A stretch of DNA of 64,000 nucleotides. Source: Brevibacillus agri (GTDB lineage: Bacteria > Bacillota > Bacilli > Brevibacillales > Brevibacillaceae). The stretch lies in NCBI RefSeq assembly GCF_004117055.1, contig NZ_CP026363.1, forward strand, positions 4,487,001 to 4,551,000, written 5' to 3'. Positions within the stretch are counted from its first letter, which is position 1. The number at the start of each line of letters is the position of its first letter. Position numbers and translations under genes: made by a program. A model generated the notes under the pieces. The model was given only the letters and a program-made list of their open reading frames with translations. It did not search any database and was not told the origin of the DNA. Shown one piece after another: positions 43,121-54,252 of this stretch.

Positions 43121-43154
43121 GACTAACTTTATGCCTGATGGGAAGGGGATAGCC

Positions 43155-44588
43155 ATGTCTTACGTTCCAACCATCGTCGTCGGATACGAGCCAAAGACGG
43201 AAGTAGACCTTTACCTACCCCAGGCGCAAATGCGCAAATGGAATCTTTCTTCGCCCACCGCTACTGTCCAATTCGGAAGCAAAACGGTTCGCGCCCGCAT
43301 CAGCGGCATAGATCGCAGCGGCCAAACACTCATCCGGCCCGCCGTGGCTGGGTCGCTTCGCCTCCCTACAGGCGTTCCTCTGCTGCTGCGCTACGACGCG
43401 GACCAACAAACGCTTGTTTTCGGGCCGTATGTAGGGATTCTCGTATCCTCTTACAATGCCCAATTTACGCAATCCCCGTTTGGACCGTTGTCAACTTTTT
43501 TCAACGAGCTAGCCGATATTTGCCGCAAGCGTGGAGGAATCATCTGCGCATTCCGACTTCAGGATGTCAATTGGGATGCCGGCATCGTGCGCGGCCTTGT
43601 TCGGAGAGGAGGAGTATGGCGCCAAAAAGTGCTGCCGCTGCCCCAATGTATCTATAACCGCCTCGTCTCCCGCCAAAGGGAGCGCAGCGAGCAGATGGCG
43701 AATTGGCTGCAGCGCTGCAAGGAAGCCAACATCCCCTTCTTCAACGAGCGTTTCTTGAACAAGTGGCACGTGCACTCCGCTCTGCAAAATCAGGAAAGCG
43801 CCGCCGAGCATCTTCCTGCCATGGTTCGCTTTCAGAGCCTGGGAGATTTGCGGATGATGCTGTCTACGTATCGCACTGTTTATGCAAAACCGGCAAATGG
43901 AAGCATGGGACGAGGGATTATCCGGCTGCGCCGAACGCAGGAGGGGTATCAGCTCGCCCGCCCAGGCGGGTTTGGCAAAACGTTCTCCAGCATAACCGGC
44001 TTGCACCAGTACTTGCACAAACAGACAAAAGGCAAACCTTATTTGCTGCAGCAAGGTTTACCGTTGATCGGCATGCACGGTCGGCCGACTGATTTTCGCG
44101 TGCTGGTGCAAAAAAATCGCGCAGGCGAATGGGCCGTCACATCTATGGTTGCCCGTTTGGGATTGAATCGCATCGTTTCCAATATATCCAGAGGCGGCCA
44201 GATGATGACGCCCCTTCAGGCACTGCGTGTATGTGGACCATGGGCCAGCTCCGTTCGCCCGTCTCCAGCCACGCTAAAAGAAGTGGCCTTGAAGCTGTCC
44301 GTCCTGCTTGAAGAAGCACTGCCCGGCCATTACGCAGAATTCGGCGTCGATCTCGGCGTGGATGTCCGTGGACAGGTGTGGCTTTTGGAGGTGAACAGCA
44401 AGCCTTCCAAAACCGCCAATACCATTCCTTTGCCTGAAGGCGTGGAGGAGCCGCCCCGACGCGCCCGTCCTTCCGTCGTACGCATGCTGGAATACTCATC
44501 CTACATCAGTGGTTTTCCCCGGACAGCCAAACCGAAACCAAGGGCGACAACAGGCAAATCCAAAGGCAAGAAAAACAGGCGAAGGTGA
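43155..44588 (+). CDS. YheC/YheD-type spore ATP-grasp protein 1
   Basis: 477 residues from ATG 43155 (site GGAAGGGG). The N-terminal about 100 residues form a beta-rich domain; then the family core with ICAFRLQDVNWDAGIVRGLV and FFNERFLNKWHVHSAL. The ATP-grasp half has VYAKPANGSMGRGIIRL (about 245), DFRVLVQKNRAGEWAVTSM, and the metal site FGVDLGVDVRGQVWLLEVNSKPSKT (about 395). The C-terminal basic tail (KPKPRATTGKSKGKKNRRR) is unlike the paralogs and may bind DNA, RNA or an acidic coat protein. Relatives in B. subtilis are coat-associated. The ligase substrate is unknown. Confidence 0.85.
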   Translation: MSYVPTIVVGYEPKTEVDLYLPQAQMRKWNLSSPTATVQFGSKTVRARISGIDRSGQTLIRPAVAGSLRLPTGVPLLLRYDADQQTLVFGPYVGILVSSYNAQFTQSPFGPLSTFFNELADICRKRGGIICAFRLQDVNWDAGIVRGLVRRGGVWRQKVLPLPQCIYNRLVSRQRERSEQMANWLQRCKEANIPFFNERFLNKWHVHSALQNQESAAEHLPAMVRFQSLGDLRMMLSTYRTVYAKPANGSMGRGIIRLRRTQEGYQLARPGGFGKTFSSITGLHQYLHKQTKGKPYLLQQGLPLIGMHGRPTDFRVLVQKNRAGEWAVTSMVARLGLNRIVSNISRGGQMMTPLQALRVCGPWASSVRPSPATLKEVALKLSVLLEEALPGHYAEFGVDLGVDVRGQVWLLEVNSKPSKTANTIPLPEGVEEPPRRARPSVVRMLEYSSYISGFPRTAKPKPRATTGKSKGKKNRRR

Positions 44589-44593
44589 CCCAC

Positions 44594-45685
44594 ATGAGAG
44601 CAGACGCGAGAAGTCTTGGCATCATGACCCGCTGCCAAGGCTCCCACTTTGTAGACAAAGGGTATTACAAAAAGCTGACGCTGTACGGACGCAAGCACGG
44701 CATTCGCGTCTTTGTGTTCTCGCCGCGTCAGGTTAACTTTTCCTCGCGAACGGTAAAAGGCTTCGAATACCGCAACGGATCGTGGCAAGCAAATGTTTTC
44801 CCGCTCCCGGCCTTGATCTACGATCGGTGTTTCGTAGGCCCAGCTTACCGCCACTATAAACCATTTGTGGAAAAGTTGCAAAACGATCGCAACATTACAT
44901 TTTTGGGGCGTGGTCTGTCCGGGAAGTGGCAGGTTCACCAAATGCTGTCCAAGTCGCCGCTGCTGTCTTCGTATTTGCCGCCGACCGAAATTTTGTCGTT
45001 TGCTACCGTGCAAGACATGCTGCAAAAGCACGGAGCTGTCGTCATCAAGCCCATGGCGGGAACGCATGGAATCGGGGTCGTGCGCATCAAGGAGACAAAG
45101 AGCGGCTACGAGGCGACCGGACGGAACCGGGAAAATCGGCCGTTTCGCAGGCAGATCCGGGACACCGCCGGGCTGAAGACTTTTGTCGCCTCGTTTACCT
45201 CCGGGCGCAAATTCCTTGTACAGCCCTATCTCAAGCTGCATACCCCGGATGGCACCCCTTTTGACGTCAGGGTGCTCGTACAAAAAAACGGGCAGGGTGA
45301 ATGGGAGACGACAGGAAAAGCTGTTCGCCTTGGCGACAAGCGAAGCATTACCTCCAACCTGCATGGAGGAGGCAAGGCAGAGCCGCTCTCCGCGTTTCTA
45401 GCCCGGCATTTCAAGCCTGCCGTCCACTCGCGGATCGATCAGACGATCAACCAGCTCGCACAGGAATTGCCGCGCTTTTTGGAGGATTGCCACGGCAGGC
45501 TTGTCGAGTTGGGGATTGATGTCGGCATCGACACGGCCGGAAATGTCTGGGTCATCGAGGTCAACAGCAGGCCAGGACGGACTGTGTTTCGCTTGATTGA
45601 CGACCCGGTCGCCAAACGCCACTCCATTACCCAGCCCGTTCGATACGCCCACTATCTCATGAAAGAGCGCGTAGGAGGTTACTAA
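44594..45685 (+). CDS. YheC/YheD-type spore ATP-grasp protein 2
   Basis: About 363 residues from ATG 44594, 8 bases after GAAGGTGA; a GTG at 44585 overlapping the previous TGA is the alternative. It lacks the N-terminal beta domain of paralogs 1, 3 and 4 and begins near the core: LGIMTRCQGSHFVDKGYYKKL. ATP-grasp landmarks: VVIKPMAGTHGIGVVRI, FDVRVLVQKNGQGEWETTGKAVRLG and LGIDVGIDTAGNVWVIEVNSRPGRT. Translational coupling to paralog 1 suggests the proteins act together. Confidence 0.85.
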   Translation: MRADARSLGIMTRCQGSHFVDKGYYKKLTLYGRKHGIRVFVFSPRQVNFSSRTVKGFEYRNGSWQANVFPLPALIYDRCFVGPAYRHYKPFVEKLQNDRNITFLGRGLSGKWQVHQMLSKSPLLSSYLPPTEILSFATVQDMLQKHGAVVIKPMAGTHGIGVVRIKETKSGYEATGRNRENRPFRRQIRDTAGLKTFVASFTSGRKFLVQPYLKLHTPDGTPFDVRVLVQKNGQGEWETTGKAVRLGDKRSITSNLHGGGKAEPLSAFLARHFKPAVHSRIDQTINQLAQELPRFLEDCHGRLVELGIDVGIDTAGNVWVIEVNSRPGRTVFRLIDDPVAKRHSITQPVRYAHYLMKERVGGY

Positions 45686-45687
45686 GC

Positions 45688-47064
45688 ATGGAAACGTTCA
45701 GAATGCGGCTTCGCTTCCTTTCCAATCCCCGTGTCAGCGGGATCATCCTGCCGACTAATCTCTTCTCCAAGCTACAGCTACGCCATCGCCAAAAAATTAC
45801 GGTCATGCTGGGCAAAAAGGAAGTCGTCGCAACCGTACTGCAAGACAAGCGAAATCCTGATTCCAATGTCATCAAAGTGACCACGCTGCTCCAGTCCGAG
45901 CTGGGCATCCCGCACGGCGGTTTGATCCAGCTCAAGCTGGAGGATTCGACGCTTCGAATCGGTCCGGCGATCGGCATCGTCACGACAGGCATTCGCAGGG
46001 ACCCGCGGCAGCCGATTGGCCAGCGCACTTCTTTTTTCTACAAGCTGCTGCAGGCCCAGGAAGGCAAAGGCGTCTTTTACTATATTTTCTCCCCGCACGA
46101 CGTGGACTGGAGTACCAATACGGTCAACGCCTGGTTTTTGCGCAAGGGCAAGACCGGCGGGTACTACTGGAAAAAAATCGTCACCGCCATGCCGGACGTC
46201 GTCTACGACCGGATTCCTTCCCGCTCGGCGGAAAAGCACGAAGCTGTGCGGGAGTTCAAATACAAGCTCGCCAGCTATCCGAACATGCCGATGTTCAACC
46301 AAGGCTTTTTCAACAAGTGGGGAGTCCACCAGATTCTCTACCCGAATCCGGAAGTCAACGAGCACATCCCGGAAACGTACACGTCCCCCTCGCTTGCGAC
46401 TGTGCGGAATTTGCTGAAAAAATACACGATCGTGTATTTGAAGCCGAAAAACGGCAGCCTCGGCTACGGCATCGTGAAAGTCGTCAGACAGTCGGGCGGC
46501 GGCTACACAGCCTCGTATCACAACGGCAGCGGCAATGTAAAGCGGCAGTTTTCCAAGCTGTCCAGCCTGTACCAGCACGTGTTCCGCAGCCGGAGAGTCG
46601 GCAGCTACCTGGCGCAGCAAGGCATCCCGCTCAAAACCTTCCACGGACGCCCGTTTGACTTCCGCGTTCATCTGCACAAAAACCAGCAAAACGAATGGGT
46701 AGTTTCCTGCACGGCTGCCAAGGTAGCCGGCTCCGGCAGCGTGACGACGCACGTGCGCACGGGCGGTACCGTCATTCCCGGAGACGAACTGCTCCACCAT
46801 CTGTACGGAAAGCAAAAAGCGCTGATGTCCGAGCGAATCAGCGAGGCTTCCATCCGCCTTGCCACGGCGATCGAGCAGGCAAAAGGCATCGACCTTGGCG
46901 AATTGGGACTGGATATGGGCATCGACATCCACGGCCATGTCTGGATGTTCGAGGCAAACTCCAAGCCCGGCCGCTCCATCTTCAAGCACGCCCGGCTCAA
47001 GCAAGCCGATCAGGAGTCCCGCAAGCTGCTCGTCGACTACAGTTGTTATTTGGCCAATTTCTAG
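45688..47064 (+). CDS. YheC/YheD-type spore ATP-grasp protein 3
   Basis: 458 residues from an ATG with GTAGGAGG upstream, 2 bases after the previous stop. N-terminal beta domain with SNPRVSGIILPTNLF, then YIFSPHDVDWSTNTVNAWFL and MFNQGFFNKWGVHQIL. The ligase domain has VYLKPKNGSLGYGIVKV, FDFRVHLHKNQQNEWVVSC, and LGLDMGIDIHGHVWMFEANSKPGRSIF. All metal-binding residues (Asp, Glu, Asn) are retained. It is likely a co-translated component of the same sporulation-specific unit. Confidence 0.85.
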   Translation: METFRMRLRFLSNPRVSGIILPTNLFSKLQLRHRQKITVMLGKKEVVATVLQDKRNPDSNVIKVTTLLQSELGIPHGGLIQLKLEDSTLRIGPAIGIVTTGIRRDPRQPIGQRTSFFYKLLQAQEGKGVFYYIFSPHDVDWSTNTVNAWFLRKGKTGGYYWKKIVTAMPDVVYDRIPSRSAEKHEAVREFKYKLASYPNMPMFNQGFFNKWGVHQILYPNPEVNEHIPETYTSPSLATVRNLLKKYTIVYLKPKNGSLGYGIVKVVRQSGGGYTASYHNGSGNVKRQFSKLSSLYQHVFRSRRVGSYLAQQGIPLKTFHGRPFDFRVHLHKNQQNEWVVSCTAAKVAGSGSVTTHVRTGGTVIPGDELLHHLYGKQKALMSERISEASIRLATAIEQAKGIDLGELGLDMGIDIHGHVWMFEANSKPGRSIFKHARLKQADQESRKLLVDYSCYLANF

Positions 47065-47107
47065 GCGATAGACAAACAGCACCGTTTTTCAGGAAGGAGG
47101 AACACCC

Positions 47108-48418
47108 ATGCTTCAGCAGCGCTCCGGGTGGCTGACCATCCTCCCCAGCGGCAAATGGTTCATCCAGCTACCACGGCAAGCTCTAGGCAAGCGGTCGCAA
47201 AAGAAACTGTTCGCAAGCCTCGGTCCGTTTTCGCACAACAAAAGGGTGTACACGGGCTTGCCCGCGATGCAGCCAGGGCGGTTTCGAACGCGGATCAACT
47301 GGAAAATGATGAACGACTCGCTAAAGCTTGGCCCTCTGATTGGCATTCTGACTGTTGGCGAGGGCGCAGCGTTTTTGGGTAATCGCGAAAACTTCAAGGA
47401 CATCTCGCAATCTGGCAAGCGTTGGGGGGCGCTCGTGTACGTCTTCACTCCGCAAGGCATCAACTGGGAGAAAAAGAAGGTACGCGGCTATTTGTACAAT
47501 CACAAGCAAAATCTGTGGCAGGAAGTCGTTCTCCCCTTCCCGCACGTCGTCTATAACCGCATCCCTACCCGAAAGGCAGAGCAGCGTCCCGAAGTCAAAA
47601 AAGCTTTGGCCCGCATCCACGAGATGCCGAACGTCACCTTGTTCAATCGCTGTTTTTTCGACAAGCAAGAGCTTTTCTCCATGCTAAAAAAGTACCCCGA
47701 GGTGCATGCGTTTCTCCCGGAGACGAAAAAGCTCGATACGCTCGCCCGCTTCAAAGGCTTTTGCACCGAGCATCGCTTCGTCTACCTCAAGCCGGTGCGC
47801 GGCAAGGCCGGGGAAGGGATCATGCGGGTCGAATACAAAAACGACGGCTGGCGGCTTCAGCGGCTCAAGGAACAACGGGCCGTCACGCGCCGCTTTTCCA
47901 ATCTGGAAGATTTGTGGAAGCACGTAAATAGCCACGTCCGGCAGCAGCGGTACATCATGCAGCAAGGCATCCGCAGGGCACGCTTCAACGGCAAGCCTTT
48001 TGACGTGCGGGTACTCGTGCAAAAAAACGGCCATGGCGAATGGGGCGTAACCGGCGTCGGAATCAGACGCTCCGGCTCGCAAAGCATCACTACGCACGTC
48101 CCGCGCGGCGGCTCCATCCACTCCTTGTCTTCCGTCCTCCAGACTTTGTTCAAGGCTGATCCGGAAAAGATGGAAGAAAAGATTCACCAGACAGCGCTTA
48201 CGATCGCAAGCACGCTGAACGAGGAGATCAAAGACCTGGCTGAAATGTCGATGGACCTCGGCCTGACAGAAGACGGCAGCCTCTGGTTTTTTGAAGCGAA
48301 CGCCAAGCCGGAGAAGTTCGATGAGCCTTCGATCAGGCGCTTGTCGCTGTCCAATCTCATCCACTACGCCCAGTACGTATCCAGACTGCAAAGCGGGCGT
48401 GAAGCCGCAGCAGGGTAA
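47108..48418 (+). CDS. YheC/YheD-type spore ATP-grasp protein 4
   Basis: 436 residues from an ATG with GAAGGAGG upstream. Shares the N-terminal beta domain and the ligase core: VYVFTPQGINWEKKKVRGYL, LFNRCFFDKQELFSML, VYLKPVRGKAGEGIMRV, FDVRVLVQKNGHGEWGVTGVG, SMDLGLTEDGSLWFFEANAKPEKF. The first metal-site Asp lies in SMDLGLTEDG rather than GVDLGVD, a small deviation that keeps the acid. Fourth consecutive paralog of the cluster; the GNAT gene follows after 5 bases. Confidence 0.85.
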   Translation: MLQQRSGWLTILPSGKWFIQLPRQALGKRSQKKLFASLGPFSHNKRVYTGLPAMQPGRFRTRINWKMMNDSLKLGPLIGILTVGEGAAFLGNRENFKDISQSGKRWGALVYVFTPQGINWEKKKVRGYLYNHKQNLWQEVVLPFPHVVYNRIPTRKAEQRPEVKKALARIHEMPNVTLFNRCFFDKQELFSMLKKYPEVHAFLPETKKLDTLARFKGFCTEHRFVYLKPVRGKAGEGIMRVEYKNDGWRLQRLKEQRAVTRRFSNLEDLWKHVNSHVRQQRYIMQQGIRRARFNGKPFDVRVLVQKNGHGEWGVTGVGIRRSGSQSITTHVPRGGSIHSLSSVLQTLFKADPEKMEEKIHQTALTIASTLNEEIKDLAEMSMDLGLTEDGSLWFFEANAKPEKFDEPSIRRLSLSNLIHYAQYVSRLQSGREAAAG

Positions 48419-48423
48419 TCGCC

Positions 48424-48906
48424 ATGAAAAAATCGTTGAAATACGTGATCTTACCTCCGCAAGCACTGGCTGAATCTCAGGCGACTCTGGTGAGATTTGC
48501 CCGTCAGGAAGGGGATCGGCGCATCACCAAGCACGCAATCGACTGGCTCTCGCGCCTGACCCCCAAGCTGCTTTCCAAAAAGGATTCCAGTGTCGCTCTT
48601 GCCATGAACGGGAAACGCGTCGTTGGCTTGTTCGCCGTTTCCCGCTGTGGACTGGGTCAATCCTTCCTGGTTGTAGATAAGCGCTACCGCAATCGGGGAA
48701 TCGGCAAAGCGCTGACGACGCTCATCTGTCAGCGCTTGCCCAAACTGTACGTGCGCGTAGCTCTCGATAATGAGGCAAGTCTTACCCTTTTTCGCACCAT
48801 GGGCTTCGAGCCTGTCAAAGCGAGCATCGGGCCAACGGGAAAGCCTACGCTCTGGTTCGCTTTTGGCCACTGGAATCCCACCGATTTGCAGGAACATGCC
48901 GGATGA
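48424..48906 (+). CDS. GNAT family N-acetyltransferase
   Basis: 160 residues. The acetyl-CoA binding loop is VVDKRYRNRGIGKALTTLI (about 78-96), preceded by the beta strand GLFAVSRCGLGQSF and followed by LYVRVALDNEASLTLFRTMGFEPV, all standard GNAT. It lies 5 bases after the fourth ATP-grasp gene and is closed by a terminator, so it is the last gene of that sporulation unit. It could acetylate a spore coat component or a ligation product; the substrate is not predictable. Confidence 0.85.
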   Translation: MKKSLKYVILPPQALAESQATLVRFARQEGDRRITKHAIDWLSRLTPKLLSKKDSSVALAMNGKRVVGLFAVSRCGLGQSFLVVDKRYRNRGIGKALTTLICQRLPKLYVRVALDNEASLTLFRTMGFEPVKASIGPTGKPTLWFAFGHWNPTDLQEHAG

Positions 48907-48924
48907 TGTCCGGCATGTTTTTTG
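48893..48924 (+). terminator. Terminator of the ATP-grasp/GNAT unit
   Basis: AACATGCCGGA, loop TGATG (GNAT stop in it), TCCGGCATGTT, TTTT: an 11-bp perfect stem. Confidence 0.93.
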
Positions 48925-49031
48925 CCATGCGCTCGTCGATTTCTTCACTAATGCGAATTCTTTTGCTTCATCCGTTCGTGCATGAGGAAACCTTCCTTGG
49001 TAAAAATACTCTGCAGGAGGTGGTCTTTCCC

Positions 49032-49910
49032 ATGACCTACACAAACAACAACAATAACAACCAAATGCAATCTCAACAGCAACAACAGTTCCTCGGAGCG
49101 ATGAGCCCAGCCGGAGCTATGTTCCAGCCAGGCTTCGCCGGAACAAACGTCCAGGAAGTTCAACACTGGAACCATGGCGGACATGCCCAATCTATCGGGA
49201 CTCCTACATACGGCATGGCTTCTGGTGGCGGAGCGAGCGGTGCTCAATCGATCTTCTCGCCAGGATTTGCGGGTACGAACGCTCAGGAAGTACGTCAGCA
49301 AAACCACAGCTACCAGGCTCCGCAGCAGCAAGGCTATGGCCAGCAACAAGCGTATGGCCAACAGCAACAACAGCAAGCGTATGTGCCAAACCAGGCATTC
49401 AACGCCATCATGCATCAATCCGGCAACTACGCGCAGACGCAGCCTTCCTACAACCAAGGCTACGGATCCGGAGCAGGCTCGATCTTCTCGCCTGGCTTCG
49501 CTGGCACGAACGCTCAGGAAGTGCGTCAGCAAAACCAACAAGGCTACACAGGCTATCAAGGGTTTGCAGGCCAACAGCAGCCGTACACCGCTCAAGTCGC
49601 TTATCCTCCAGCGCTGACTGGCAGCATCTTCTCCCCTGGCTTTGCCCATACAAACGTCCAGGAAGTGCGCCAGCAAAACCATGGCGGCGGCTATGCTGCT
49701 TCGCTTCCGCAAGGCGGCTTCGGCATGCAAGCTCAGTACGGCCAGCAGCAACAACAGCAAGCTCAGCAATACCAGCAACCGCTCGGCTCGGGAGCGCACT
49801 CGATCTTTTCTCCCGGCTTTGCTGGCACTAACGTTCAGGAAGTACGCCAACTGAACACGCCAGGCCAGGCAGCTCCACACACTGGCTCCATCTTCCCAGG
49901 CAGCTTCTAA
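49032..49910 (+). CDS. Gln-rich repeat protein with gamma-SASP-like motifs
   Basis: 292 residues from ATG 49032, chosen for the GCAGGAGGTGG site. The protein is a five-fold repeat of (S/A)(I/M)F.PGFAGTN(A/V)QEV(R/Q)QQN separated by Gln/Tyr/Gly-rich linkers (poly-Q runs near 15-20, 110-125 and 240-250), ending GSIFPGSF. FAGTNAQEVRQQNQ closely matches the repeat of gamma-type small acid-soluble spore proteins (F.SETNAQ.VR.QNQ), which have only two or three copies and are about 85 residues. No signal peptide, almost no lysine and very few hydrophobic residues. It is separate from the ATP-grasp unit by a terminator but adjacent to it. I infer a spore storage or coat protein. Confidence 0.7.
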   Translation: MTYTNNNNNNQMQSQQQQQFLGAMSPAGAMFQPGFAGTNVQEVQHWNHGGHAQSIGTPTYGMASGGGASGAQSIFSPGFAGTNAQEVRQQNHSYQAPQQQGYGQQQAYGQQQQQQAYVPNQAFNAIMHQSGNYAQTQPSYNQGYGSGAGSIFSPGFAGTNAQEVRQQNQQGYTGYQGFAGQQQPYTAQVAYPPALTGSIFSPGFAHTNVQEVRQQNHGGGYAASLPQGGFGMQAQYGQQQQQQAQQYQQPLGSGAHSIFSPGFAGTNVQEVRQLNTPGQAAPHTGSIFPGSF

Positions 49911-49963: not shown

Positions 49964-49999
49964 AAAAAGCGTGACCATCTGCGGACGGTCACGCTTTTT
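49964..49999. terminator. Bidirectional terminator
   Basis: AAAAAGCGTGACC and GGTCACGCTTTTT arms, 10-base loop, between two convergent genes; the TGA of the minus-strand gene lies in it. Confidence 0.92.
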
Positions 50000-50624: not shown

Positions 50625-52304
50625 TTATTCCTTGCCGTTTTTCCAGTAATCGTAGGCGTGAATGGCATGCCCCATGAACGAAGAGTACGGATCCAGCGCT
50701 TTTGTCACCTGTTCCAACTGCCGATGCATCTCGCTCATTCCTTCCTCGTAGAACGAAATGCCGTTCCCTTCGTGACTCTCCTTTGTCTCGACTGCGACGA
50801 CGATCTTTTTTCCGATGCTCTGCGCGTATTTCACCTGATTTTCTACCAAGCCGACGATGCGATCCGCCCGATCGCGAAAAGCCATTAAAGTCGTATGGTC
50901 CAACTGCTCGATCATCCAATGGGAAAACGGCGTGTCCGGCTGTCCCGGCACAGACGTATTGTCCAGCCAGGCGGCAAGATCGACGCTCGCTTCCAGTTGG
51001 CCGTCCTGCTTCGTCTCCGCGACAAACGCCTGAATGTTTGCCATCCACTGGCGCAATACGTTGTCTTTATCCTCTCGCCAGACAGGCATCACATACGGCT
51101 CGATATCGAGATGGATGCCTTGAAATTGCTCGCCTGACTGTACCGACTGGTTGTACGCTTTCACCCAGTTGACGAGCTTCATGATTTTCCCTCTGCTCTC
51201 TGCCAGTGCCCAGACCGGATGGCCGCCCATGGCGTGCACCTCGATGCCCGCCGCTCGGGCCTCCCGCACGAAATCGCGGTAGTAGGAGTGGGGTTGCTCC
51301 AAATCCAGGCGAACGTAGAGCAGATTGACGCCGTTTTGTTCGGCAAAGGCGAGGATTTCCTCTTTTTCAGTGCCGATCAGCTCAGCGCGCCAAATATAGG
51401 TGCCTTTGTAGCGCTCTTTTGTGACCGGAGCCACCGGGAGAGCCTCCTTCCAATAGCGGTAGTCGTGGATCGCGATACCGGAGTAGGACGGATGGTCGCC
51501 CAATTTTTCGGGCAAAAGCGCGAGCTGTCGATTCATCTCCTCTACGCCTTCCTCGGCAAAAGAAGCGTGGTCGTCGCCGAGCTTTTTCATGTTGACGGCA
51601 ATCATCACCCGCGTGCCCAGCTTGTCCGCTTCTTTCAGTTCATCCTCCACCAGTGCCAGAATGCCGTTTTTCCCGGACAGCGTATCGCGGTAGGCCATGA
51701 TGCACACCGTGTCAAACTGCTCGATCATCCATTGCGACACCGATACAGACTGCTCGCCCGGAACGGGAATATCGTCGAGCCAAAAGGCGAGCGCCACGCT
51801 TGCCACAAGCTCGGGCTGTTTTTTCACTTCGCTCGTAAACGCCTGCACATTGGCTTGCCACTCCCGGATGATCCGCTCGCGATCCGTCTCCCAGAACGGC
51901 AGCAAGTACGGCTCGATGTCCAGTTGAATGCCGCGGATGCGCTCGTCTTCCGCCGCTTCGAGGTTGTAGTTTTTCACCCATTTGACGATATTCATCATCC
52001 GCTTTTCGTTGCTTTTAAGCGCCCAGGCAGGGTGTCCGGCCACGGCGTGCACCTCCACGCCCATCGCATTCGCTTCGCGGATAAAGGCGCGGTAGTAGTC
52101 AAACGGCTTGTTCATTTCGATCCGCAAGTAAATCAGGTTGATCTCGTTGCTTTTGCAAAATTCCAGAATTTCCTGTTTTTCGTCTCCGATGATTTCGGAT
52201 TGCCAAATCCACGTGGCTTTACTCTTTTTTTCCGCCGGGGAAAAGCCGAACAGAAAGCCGAGCGTCAGGCAGAGAACACTAAGGTAGATAGGCGCGGCTT
52301 TCAT
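50625..52304 (-). CDS. Exported protein with two tandem TIM-barrel-like domains
   Basis: 559 residues with a signal sequence (AAPIYLSVLCLTLGFLFGF). Two copies of one domain: residues about 29-285 and 300-559 both have TWIW/TYIW, INLIYLR/VNLLYVR, EVHAVAGHPAWAL/EVHAMGGHPVWAL, then the acidic strand GIQLDIEPYLLPFW / GIHLDIEPYVMPVW. Strand-ending LDIEPY is reminiscent of GH18-like barrels with their catalytic acids. It probably acts on an exopolysaccharide, as the last gene of the operon. The neighbouring 52310 gene is a single-domain paralog. Family number cannot be assigned by eye. Confidence 0.65.
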   Translation of the reverse strand: MKAAPIYLSVLCLTLGFLFGFSPAEKKSKATWIWQSEIIGDEKQEILEFCKSNEINLIYLRIEMNKPFDYYRAFIREANAMGVEVHAVAGHPAWALKSNEKRMMNIVKWVKNYNLEAAEDERIRGIQLDIEPYLLPFWETDRERIIREWQANVQAFTSEVKKQPELVASVALAFWLDDIPVPGEQSVSVSQWMIEQFDTVCIMAYRDTLSGKNGILALVEDELKEADKLGTRVMIAVNMKKLGDDHASFAEEGVEEMNRQLALLPEKLGDHPSYSGIAIHDYRYWKEALPVAPVTKERYKGTYIWRAELIGTEKEEILAFAEQNGVNLLYVRLDLEQPHSYYRDFVREARAAGIEVHAMGGHPVWALAESRGKIMKLVNWVKAYNQSVQSGEQFQGIHLDIEPYVMPVWREDKDNVLRQWMANIQAFVAETKQDGQLEASVDLAAWLDNTSVPGQPDTPFSHWMIEQLDHTTLMAFRDRADRIVGLVENQVKYAQSIGKKIVVAVETKESHEGNGISFYEEGMSEMHRQLEQVTKALDPYSSFMGHAIHAYDYWKNGKE

Positions 52305-52309
52305 CTGTG

Positions 52310-53230
52310 CTAGCTACTCCTCTCATTGGCTTCTATGCTTCGTTTCCAGCTTTCGTAGTCGTGAATGGCGCTGCCTGCGAACGCCGGGTTGCCGGACAGC
52401 TCCTGCTGCAAAATCGCCAGTTGGCTTTTCATCTCCGCCGGACCGTCGTCGTAGAAGCTCACATGCGAGCCTTCCGCCGATTCCATAATGTTGACCCCGA
52501 CGATCACCGAGCCTTTTTTCCGCGAGTTGGCGTCGGCTACGATCTTTTTCACAATCTCGACAATGCCGTTGTCTCCCTGGGCGCGGTTGCGGTACGCCAT
52601 CAGCGTGATGCTGTCGAGGCGCTGCACCATCCAGTTGCTGACTTTTTCCGAGCTTCCCGGGACGGAAACGGAGTCGATCCAGAACGGCAGGTCTGCGCCC
52701 ACCGCCAGATCGGTGTCCTTCTTCGTCTCGGCCACGAGGTACGCGACATTTTTCAGCCATTGGCGCACGACATCCTGCTGCGACTCCTTCCAGGCGGGCA
52801 GCAAGTACGGCTCGATATCGACGTGGATGCCACTAAAGCGCTCGTCCGCCCTGGCGCTCCTGTTGTACGCTTTCACCCAGGAGATCAGTTCGTCGATGCT
52901 TTGGCGGTTTTTGGTCAGCGCCCAGTTGGGATCGCCGCCCAGCGCCTCCACCTGAATGCTGGCCTGCCCCGCTTTGCGGATGAACGTCCGGTATGCCTCA
53001 GGCGAAACGGCGGTCGGCTCTACATGGAGATAGATCAGGTTGATGTCGTTTTCCTCGGCAAACGCGATCATTTCGTCCGTCTGCGTCTCGATTTGTTTGG
53101 CGTCCCAAATCCAGGTGGCTGTCGTCAGGGCAGCGCGAGAGTGGTTGGAGAGCACGAGCATGAGGATGGAAGCGGCCGCAAAAATCGCCATCCCGGCCCA
53201 TAGCGGCCCGTATTTTCGCAGCGCCCGCAT
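52310..53230 (-). CDS. Exported single TIM-barrel-like protein
   Basis: 306 residues; the ATG at 53230 overlaps the previous TGA (TGATG), showing translational coupling. N-terminal membrane segment (YGPLWAGMAIFAAASILMLVL), then one domain homologous to both halves of the next protein: ATWIWDAKQIETQ, INLIYLHVEP, QVEALGGDPNWALTKN, GIHVDIEPYLLPAW, VPGSSEKVSNWMVQRLDSITLMAYRN, and a C-terminal EMKSQL...SAIHDYESWK. The three domains of this pair of genes thus arose by duplication. Likely a polysaccharide hydrolase or binding protein outside the membrane. Confidence 0.65.
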   Translation of the reverse strand: MRALRKYGPLWAGMAIFAAASILMLVLSNHSRAALTTATWIWDAKQIETQTDEMIAFAEENDINLIYLHVEPTAVSPEAYRTFIRKAGQASIQVEALGGDPNWALTKNRQSIDELISWVKAYNRSARADERFSGIHVDIEPYLLPAWKESQQDVVRQWLKNVAYLVAETKKDTDLAVGADLPFWIDSVSVPGSSEKVSNWMVQRLDSITLMAYRNRAQGDNGIVEIVKKIVADANSRKKGSVIVGVNIMESAEGSHVSFYDDGPAEMKSQLAILQQELSGNPAFAGSAIHDYESWKRSIEANERSS

Positions 53231-54252
53231 CAATTCAGGCCGTGATCCTGCCCGTTTGTCGTCGCTGCCACCTCAACTGCCGCCCTGTCTGTGTACGCGC
53301 TCCCGTCAAATGAGGAAAACGGCGGAACTCGCGTGTAATCTTCGACGACCATATCCTTGACGTGGGCGTGCGGCCCAACCTGGCAGCCTTCCCCGATCTG
53401 CGTCGCGCCAAGCAAAAACGTCCCGGGATACAGCACCGTATCGCGCCCGATCGTCACCGCCGAGTCGATGTACGTAGCGGCCGGGTCGATCATGGTCACG
53501 CCGCTCTTCATGTGGCGCTCGTTGATCCGCTTGCGCATGAGCCGCTCCAGGTGGGCGAGCTGCACGCGGTCGTTTACGCCTGAGCCTTCCTCCGGATCTT
53601 CGGTAACGTGTGCGGCCACCAGTTCTCCCTGCTCCTGCAAAAGCGCCAGGACGTCTGGCAAGTAATACTCGCCCTGCGCGTTCTGATTGGAGACGTTCGG
53701 GAGGGTCGCAAAAAGCTTTCGATTATCGAAGCAAAAGATGCCCGTGCTGATTTCGTTCACCTTTTTTTGCCCGAGGGTCGCGTCCTTTTCCTCGACGATT
53801 TTGCGGACATCGCCGTTCTCGTCGCGAATGATTCTTCCGTAGCCGGTCGGGTCTTCCACGATGGAAGTCAAAACCGTCGCTGCCGCCTGCTTCGACTGAT
53901 GGTAGTCGAGCAGACGCCGCAGCGTTTCGCTTTGCACGAGCGGCGTATCGCCATTGAGCACGATCGTCACGCCGTTTTGCTCTGCGAGGATGTCTTTGCT
54001 CATCCATACGGCGTGCGCCGTGCCGAGCTGCTCCTTCTGCTGCGCGTATTGCACGCGGCTTCCGAGCTGCTTTTTCACGGCTTCGGCCCCGTGACCGACA
54101 ACGACAACCAAGGTATGTAGTGACAAAGGCTCCAGTGCCCCGACGACATGCTCGATCATCGGCTTTCCGCACAGCGGATGCATGACTTTGTACAAGGCAG
54201 AGTTCATTCTGGTTCCTTTTCCTGCTGCGAGCACTACTGCGTGTATGTTCAT
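53230..54252 (-). CDS. GlmU-like UDP-GlcNAc pyrophosphorylase lacking most of the acetyltransferase
   Basis: 340 residues. The nucleotidyltransferase half is complete: VVLAAGKGTRMNSALYKVMHPLCGKPM, QLGTAHAVW, VLNGDTPLV, DPTGYGRIIRD, VNEISTGIFCFD, EGSGVNDRVQLA. The left-handed beta-helix begins (DPAATYIDSAVTIGRDTVLYPGTFLLG, GEGCQVGPHAHVKD) but the protein ends about 120 residues short of the usual 456-460, so the acetyl-CoA site and catalytic His are absent. It should make UDP-GlcNAc from GlcNAc-1-P but not acetylate GlcN-1-P. Its ATG overlaps the preceding TGA. A full GlmU must exist elsewhere. Confidence 0.85.
   Translation of the reverse strand: MNIHAVVLAAGKGTRMNSALYKVMHPLCGKPMIEHVVGALEPLSLHTLVVVVGHGAEAVKKQLGSRVQYAQQKEQLGTAHAVWMSKDILAEQNGVTIVLNGDTPLVQSETLRRLLDYHQSKQAAATVLTSIVEDPTGYGRIIRDENGDVRKIVEEKDATLGQKKVNEISTGIFCFDNRKLFATLPNVSNQNAQGEYYLPDVLALLQEQGELVAAHVTEDPEEGSGVNDRVQLAHLERLMRKRINERHMKSGVTMIDPAATYIDSAVTIGRDTVLYPGTFLLGATQIGEGCQVGPHAHVKDMVVEDYTRVPPFSSFDGSAYTDRAAVEVAATTNGQDHGLN

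Follow-up and report, generated by a model that had tools for sequence, protein, structure and literature searches.

Alpha/beta-type and gamma-type small acid-soluble spore proteins (SASPs) rank among the most abundant spore proteins (PMC7649253). The gamma type (SspE; PF04259, TIGR01442) comprises proteins of less than about 100 aa that are rich in Gln, Asn, Ala and Ser, lack Cys, share the core T-N-x-x-[EQ]-V-[RK]-x-x-N and are preceded by forespore-type promoter sequences. To our knowledge, the precise role of gamma-type SASPs is unsettled; the protease GPR, which degrades them at germination, needs a Glu before the cut.

Here we describe a protein related to the gamma type that is encoded in a 64,000-nt stretch of Brevibacillus agri contig NZ_CP026363.1 (positions 4,487,001 to 4,551,000; hereafter the window). 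It has 292 aa and five repeats, whereas the short gamma-SASPs of the genus contain one or two repeats in 53-89 aa. The window protein and the gamma type have in common the core TN..[EQ]VR..N, a Q/N/A/S-rich composition without Cys and a putative forespore-type promoter sequence; the window protein differs in its SIFSPGF lead, the absence of the GPR Glu and of Lys, its low charge and an aromatic content of 12%. The best reading is a giant gamma-SASP relative whose mechanism is hypothetical. Among the papers listed by literature searches, none dealt with the window protein.

Gene and repeat architecture

The gene (49032..49910, forward strand) follows a ribosome binding site, GGAGGTGG (49016..49023, +), which ends 8 nt 5' of the ATG and whose GGAGGTG is invariant in 25/25 aligned upstream regions. 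Its product carries five copies of the pattern [IM]F[SQ]PGFA[GH]TN[AV]QEV[RQ]..N, along with Gln runs of 5, 6 and 6. The first copy, MFQPGFAGTNVQEVQHWN (49119..49172, starting at Met30), is degenerate, with Gln in place of Arg in the core motif and without the SIF lead. Repeats 2 and 3 both read IFSPGFAGTNAQEVRQQN (49251..49304, from Ile74, and 49482..49535, from Ile151), repeat 4 reads IFSPGFAHTNVQEVRQQN (49626..49679, from Ile199) and repeat 5 IFSPGFAGTNVQEVRQLN (49803..49856, from Ile258), all on the forward strand, and a partial sixth copy, the stub SIFPGSF (49887..49907, +), closes the protein. The five motif copies in 292 aa described in the first-pass annotation are confirmed, with a degenerate first copy and a C-terminal stub besides; the SIF lead that it ascribed to each copy is found in four of the five, repeat 1 being the exception. 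The SIFSPGF element, put forward there as new, is real and occurs family-wide as [IVM]F[SQ]PGFA. Save for the Gln in repeat 1, the repeats match the gamma-SASP core, and the 25 aligned orthologs together contain TN..[EQ]V[RQ]..N 128 times, compared with one occurrence in 5,000 composition-preserving shuffles of them.

A terminator-like hairpin (48888..48925, +; -23.6 kcal/mol, z -5.5) overlaps the stop codon of the upstream GNAT gene, and a second, consisting of an A run, a stem and a T run (49964..49999; folded region z -5.0), lies 3' of the repeat-protein gene. Although a consensus scan reported neither, hairpins on both sides suggest that the gene is probably its own transcript.

Selection, composition and predicted disorder

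Relative to the closest ortholog, dN/dS is approximately 0.02 in the repeat cores (dN 0.014, dS 0.572) and 0.27 in the linkers (dN 0.136, dS 0.509). In the remaining four ortholog pairs, dS had reached saturation in the cores. From these values the gene is real and under purifying selection, and its repeat unit is held more than its linkers.

The 25 orthologs consist of 17.8% Gln, 15.0% Gly and 11.6% Phe, Tyr and Trp, with only 1.9% Asp plus Glu and 1.6% Lys plus Arg; the corresponding values in the 26 short gamma-SASPs of the genus are 2.1% aromatic, 7.8% acidic and 9.4% basic. Their 6,956 residues include one Asp, 133 Glu and 108 Arg, Glu and Arg each amounting to about one per repeat, and neither Lys nor Cys occurs in any of the 25; among A-types (the form found in the window) of other genera, 3/7 have 1-2 Lys. 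An AlphaFold2 model of the window protein has a mean pLDDT of 37.8, with 0/292 residues above 70. Taken with the composition, this low confidence suggests that the protein is probably disordered, although a model from 25 aligned sequences is weak evidence.

Kinship to gamma-type SASPs

By itself the window protein scores 22.0 bits against PF04259 and 28.6 bits against TIGR01442, under the curated cut-offs of 28.4 and 30.65, respectively. With an E-value threshold of 0.01 in place of the curated cut-offs, TIGR01442 matches 19/25 orthologs and PF04259 10/25; given the former count, the NCBI pipeline may be naming some orthologs gamma-type SASP already, so that existing annotation may reflect part of the kinship. 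A model of eight distinct repeat units from the short gamma-SASPs of the genus gives the 25 orthologs 20-64 bits, as opposed to 17.6 at most for 5,000 shuffles and 9.2 for reversed proteins. Profile A2, which represents the B-types described below and excludes the window, gives the window protein 108.7 bits and L183 85.7 bits, the best of 1,000 shuffles of each reaching -13.7 and -0.4. L183 (266 aa, family f150) in turn exceeds the gamma-SASP cut-off of each model, matching in three separate stretches. The chain from the window protein over A2 and L183 to PF04259 and TIGR01442 supports common descent with gamma-SASPs. The kinship asserted in the first-pass annotation therefore stands by way of this chain, while the window protein alone falls short of both curated cut-offs. 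We treat it as a gamma-SASP relative and do not file it as a gamma-SASP member, because its scores lie under the cut-offs, it has no GPR site and its 292 aa exceed the size limit of about 100 aa.

The window protein has no significant match to the alpha/beta-type SASPs (PF00269; E up to 1). Repetitive proteins gave clearly false Pfam matches, some above cut-off (for example, to a reovirus domain), so summed scores are to be distrusted; PF00269 matches in L189 and L190 were rejected as repeat-inflated sums of weak matches. L189 (950-1531), L190 (963-1547) and L191 (978-1340) encode charged, Lys-containing, multi-repeat proteins whose first unit is gamma-like, TGT[ND][IM]EEVKRQNAQ, and is followed by B-like VREEIA[QE]E units. 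They may be an evolutionary bridge from gamma-SASPs to B-types.

Loss of the GPR site

The near-identity to the F.SETNAQ motif noted at first holds for the core; however, the window repeats read FAGTN where gamma-SASPs read FASETN, one residue shorter, and they lack two parts of the GPR site, the Glu that precedes F and the Ser-Glu that follows it. None of the five window repeats has Glu before F, and in 132 repeats of 25 A-types this residue is Gly (126), Asn (5) or Ser (1), and never Glu. The window protein also has no [DE]IA.E. A search for GPR cleavage sites, as the first-pass annotation had proposed, thus found no TEFASE-type site in the window protein or in its 25 orthologs, and the recognisable GPR site has been lost from the A-type of Brevibacillaceae. 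All 26 genus genomes have a GPR gene and also, at a locus apart from that of the repeat protein, a short gamma-SASP (25/26 over the Pfam cut-off), which reads TEFASETN or TEFGSETN with the Glu in 39/39 units, a Glu that the selection pattern itself requires.

B-type and wider repeats likewise have no Glu before F, and carry Q[DE]IA[QR][ED] after the motif (QDIARE in the B-type consensus of the order, A2). In 96 repeats collected by pattern from relatives outside the order, the first place of this element is D in 62 and E in 12, followed by I in 87 and A in 71, with E or D two residues past the A in 83. Two alpha/beta SASPs of the window genome (L032, L033) have EIASE, which resembles the B-type DIARE, and the [DE]IA.[ED] of B-type repeats is possibly a relocated GPR site.

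Distribution of A-types and B-types

The family is present throughout the genus, with matches in 26/26 genomes and complete A-type proteins in 25 (242-352 aa; five repeats in 20, six in 3 and seven in 2); in the remaining genome, G010 (L027, L160), a divergent B-type is the sole homolog found. Homologs occur in all 39 genomes searched in the order, from seven genera, and reading of the proteins at matched loci assigned an A-type to 32 and a B-type to 8, with both in G003. The B-type giants (A2 and relatives such as L172 and L176) have a tandem [FM]QPGFAGTN..QVR unit as in the window protein; within the order, the proteins of all nine B-type loci are free of Lys and Cys, like the A-types of the genus. 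Unlike A-types, the B-type giants continue after the motif with Q[DE]IA[QR][ED]GG[FY]. A scan of GTDB contigs returned 20 A-type loci, from records titled Brevibacillus (19) and Anoxybacillus sediminis (1). The latter record, strain PCH 117 (L131), has a Brevibacillus-type locus and neighbours and is perhaps a misnamed Brevibacillus.

Beyond the family, profile A2 matches 58/398 genomes of the class, of which 36 belong to the own family and 22 are spread over 11 further families. Among the 20 of these 22 places that were fetched and read, multi-repeat proteins were present in seven outside families (f4, f144, f149, f150, f151, f156 and f162). Against 398 genomes of the phylum, profile A1 matched the own genome alone and A2 matched six; the four A2 matches outside the class, with E-values of 4.7e-5 or worse, are too weak to be believed. 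Searches of phages with the window protein and of plasmids with L176 (tblastn), and of PDB chains with profile A1, gave no match.

Promoter sequences

In the 25 aligned upstream regions, a conserved block directly 5' of the ribosome binding site reads GCATG-N14-GGTAAAAAT in the window. By consensus, GCATG (48980..48984, +) is a putative -35 element of the sigma-F/G type and GGTAAAAAT (48999..49007, +) a putative -10 element of the sigma-F type, overlapping a weaker sigma-G reading. A further upstream candidate for the -35 element, GAATTCTC, was rejected, as 9/25 orthologs do not have it, and a sigma-70 consensus scan found no promoter.

Upstream regions were scored against consensus strings for the four sporulation sigma factors (F, G, E and K) and compared with shuffles, at p<=0.05 as printed. 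The window matches the sigma-F model at 9/10 positions (a fraction of 0.00 of 300 shuffles being as good) and the sigma-G model at 9/11 (p 0.11), whereas the mother-cell models fit poorly (sigma-E 8/13, p 0.74; sigma-K 5/8, p 0.91). Among A-types the threshold is reached for sigma-F in 13/32, sigma-G in 2/32, sigma-E in 1/32 and sigma-K in 0/32, that is, for sigma-F or G in 15/32 and for neither forespore model in 17/32, these orthologs not being independent of one another. In 28/32 A-types, 8 or 9 of the 10 positions match at the top-scoring sigma-F site, and its -10 begins 29-33 nt 5' of the ATG. B-types reach the threshold for sigma-G in 4/8 and for sigma-F, sigma-E and sigma-K in 1/8 each, the last two both at L147, which has a full sigma-K match (8/8). 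Outside the order, where 18 of 20 loci were scored (L179 and L184 being left out for a truncated or mis-read frame and a run of N), B-type relatives mostly have forespore-type sequences: 14/18 reach sigma-F or G, 1/18 sigma-E and 0/18 sigma-K, with full sigma-G matches (11/11) in L181, L182, L183, L189, L190 and L191. Visual inspection showed GGATA-N18-CAAATTA, a near-match to sigma-G, ahead of the window genome's short gamma-SASP gene, and a full match, read as a forespore sigma-G promoter, ahead of the alpha/beta-type gene L032.

Upstream regions of gpr (26 loci; the choice of start codon failed in 7 and was wrong in others) and of spoIIR (19 of 26 loci), used as sigma-F controls, gave no clear motif, so the sigma-F assignment rests on the consensus strings and on the csfB elements. 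The latter appear in one source as GTATA and GGGGAGGCTA (PMC4383634). Overall, the promoter sequences fit the forespore models better than those of the mother cell; since the two controls failed, the orthologs are not independent and 17/32 A-types reach neither model, forespore expression is something that we infer. The promoter pattern occurs at 4 places in the own genome, compared with 1 for a reversed control. Another of these places, L138, precedes an ORF that by eye resembles a GerA-family germination protein.

Genomic neighbourhood

The region upstream of the repeat-protein gene (43131-48906) holds a tandem array of four YheC/D-type ATP-grasp genes (forward strand; 43131-44588, 44585-45685, 45688-47064 and 47108-48418; the last two called by Pfam and the first two by tblastn), followed by the GNAT gene. 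YheC/D genes are conserved neighbours, being found 0.1 to 2.1 kb upstream of the A-type at 20/20 loci of the GTDB scan and at 7/7 further loci, several of which are probably from the same genomes as the 20; the GNAT gene is upstream at 14/20. The B-type loci of the order have no YheC/D gene in their flanks (0/9), and 2/9 (L160 and L161) have a CotF-type gene beside them, which Pfam identifies as Coat_F at L160. The other seven loci, including two contig-end fragments, showed neither gene in the flanks that were fetched. YheC/YheD and CotF coat proteins are neighbours in the genome and unrelated in sequence. The yheC and yheD genes of B. subtilis have been assigned to sigma-E (PMC517825). No homologs known as surface proteins were found, although the neighbourhood itself is coat-associated. 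It is conceivable, as speculation, that the Gln/Glu-bearing repeat protein is a substrate of the adjoining YheC/D ATP-grasp proteins. On the reverse strand at 50625-53233, two adjoining genes without a Pfam match above cut-off contain two copies and one copy of a unit of about 265 aa, 40-44% identical.

A candidate spore-core matrix protein and its alternatives

We propose that the window protein is a forespore-made, disordered, multi-repeat gamma-SASP relative that acts as a core-matrix protein within a class-wide set of giants, and assign this reading a probability of about one half. The protein would be made in the forespore, as its promoter sequence suggests, and packed inside the spore core, forming a sticker-and-spacer matrix of low charge in which Phe and Tyr of the repeat cores would be the stickers and the Q/N/G/S linkers the spacers; both the core location and the matrix role are hypothetical. 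Because the A-type has no recognisable GPR site, it should outlast early germination, persisting beyond the first minutes until other proteases remove it. If it is a core protein, its repeat must do something besides being digested by GPR. A relative that combines a constrained repeat unit (core dN/dS of about 0.02) with the absence of a protease site would set the two roles apart, and the B-types, with a possible relocated GPR site, offer the matching contrast. Only tentatively do we extend this to the class as a whole, in which giant forespore gamma-SASP relatives would be widespread, the A branch would have shed its GPR site with its repeat core still strongly selected, and TN..EVR..N would function in the dormant core, as a reversible self-assembled matrix, apart from any use as food.

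A mother-cell-made structural protein of the spore coat or inter-coat space, with Gln/Tyr repeats cross-linked (by transglutaminase or as dityrosine) with YheC/D and CotF-type proteins, is an unlikely alternative. Its chief support is the conserved position 3' of tandem YheC/D genes, which forespore expression does not account for; the CotF-type gene beside L160 and L161, the sigma-K-like site of L147 and the high aromatic content point the same way. The promoter counts run against it, as sigma-E or K is reached in 1/32 A-types and 1/18 outside relatives and sigma-F or G in 15/32 and 14/18, and the hairpins on both sides suggest that the gene is not co-transcribed with YheC/D. The absence of Lys and Cys from all 25 genus orthologs (with 1-2 Lys in 3/7 A-types of other genera) and the seven B-type loci with neither neighbour in their fetched flanks, contig-end fragments included, also count against a coat protein.

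A conventional gamma-SASP store of amino acids, grown large through duplicated repeats and broken down by GPR in the germinating spore, would explain the repeat kinship, the Q/N/G/A-rich composition and the universal GPR gene of the genus, and the [DE]IA.[ED] of outside relatives and QDIARE of the B-types of the order, which are like EIASE, suit it as well. We consider it improbable for the window protein, given that Glu before F is absent from 5/5 window and 132/132 ortholog repeats, that [DE]IA.E is absent too, and that 26/26 genus genomes retain a short TEFASET-bearing gamma-SASP as a distinct gene. The GPR-released storage suggested in the first-pass annotation is accordingly not supported, and a core matrix protein is the most likely of the two. 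Very unlikely, finally, is a resemblance to gamma-SASPs by convergence on a short Q/N-rich motif. The common stretch of about 11 residues, the scores under both curated cut-offs and the false Pfam matches of repetitive proteins would allow it, yet the shuffle controls, the three separate stretches with which L183 passes both cut-offs and the succession of gamma-like and B-like units in L189-L191 argue for descent.

One-unit relatives

Families f8, f184 and f190 were each reached through a one-unit protein. These proteins (L186, L187 and L188) are 50-52 aa long and combine a single [FY][AS]GT[DN]A..VKQ.I.KDV unit with the conserved tail GQGAMTSREAG. They have no Pfam and no credible NCBIfam match, and may represent a small spore protein of one unit that has yet to be named.
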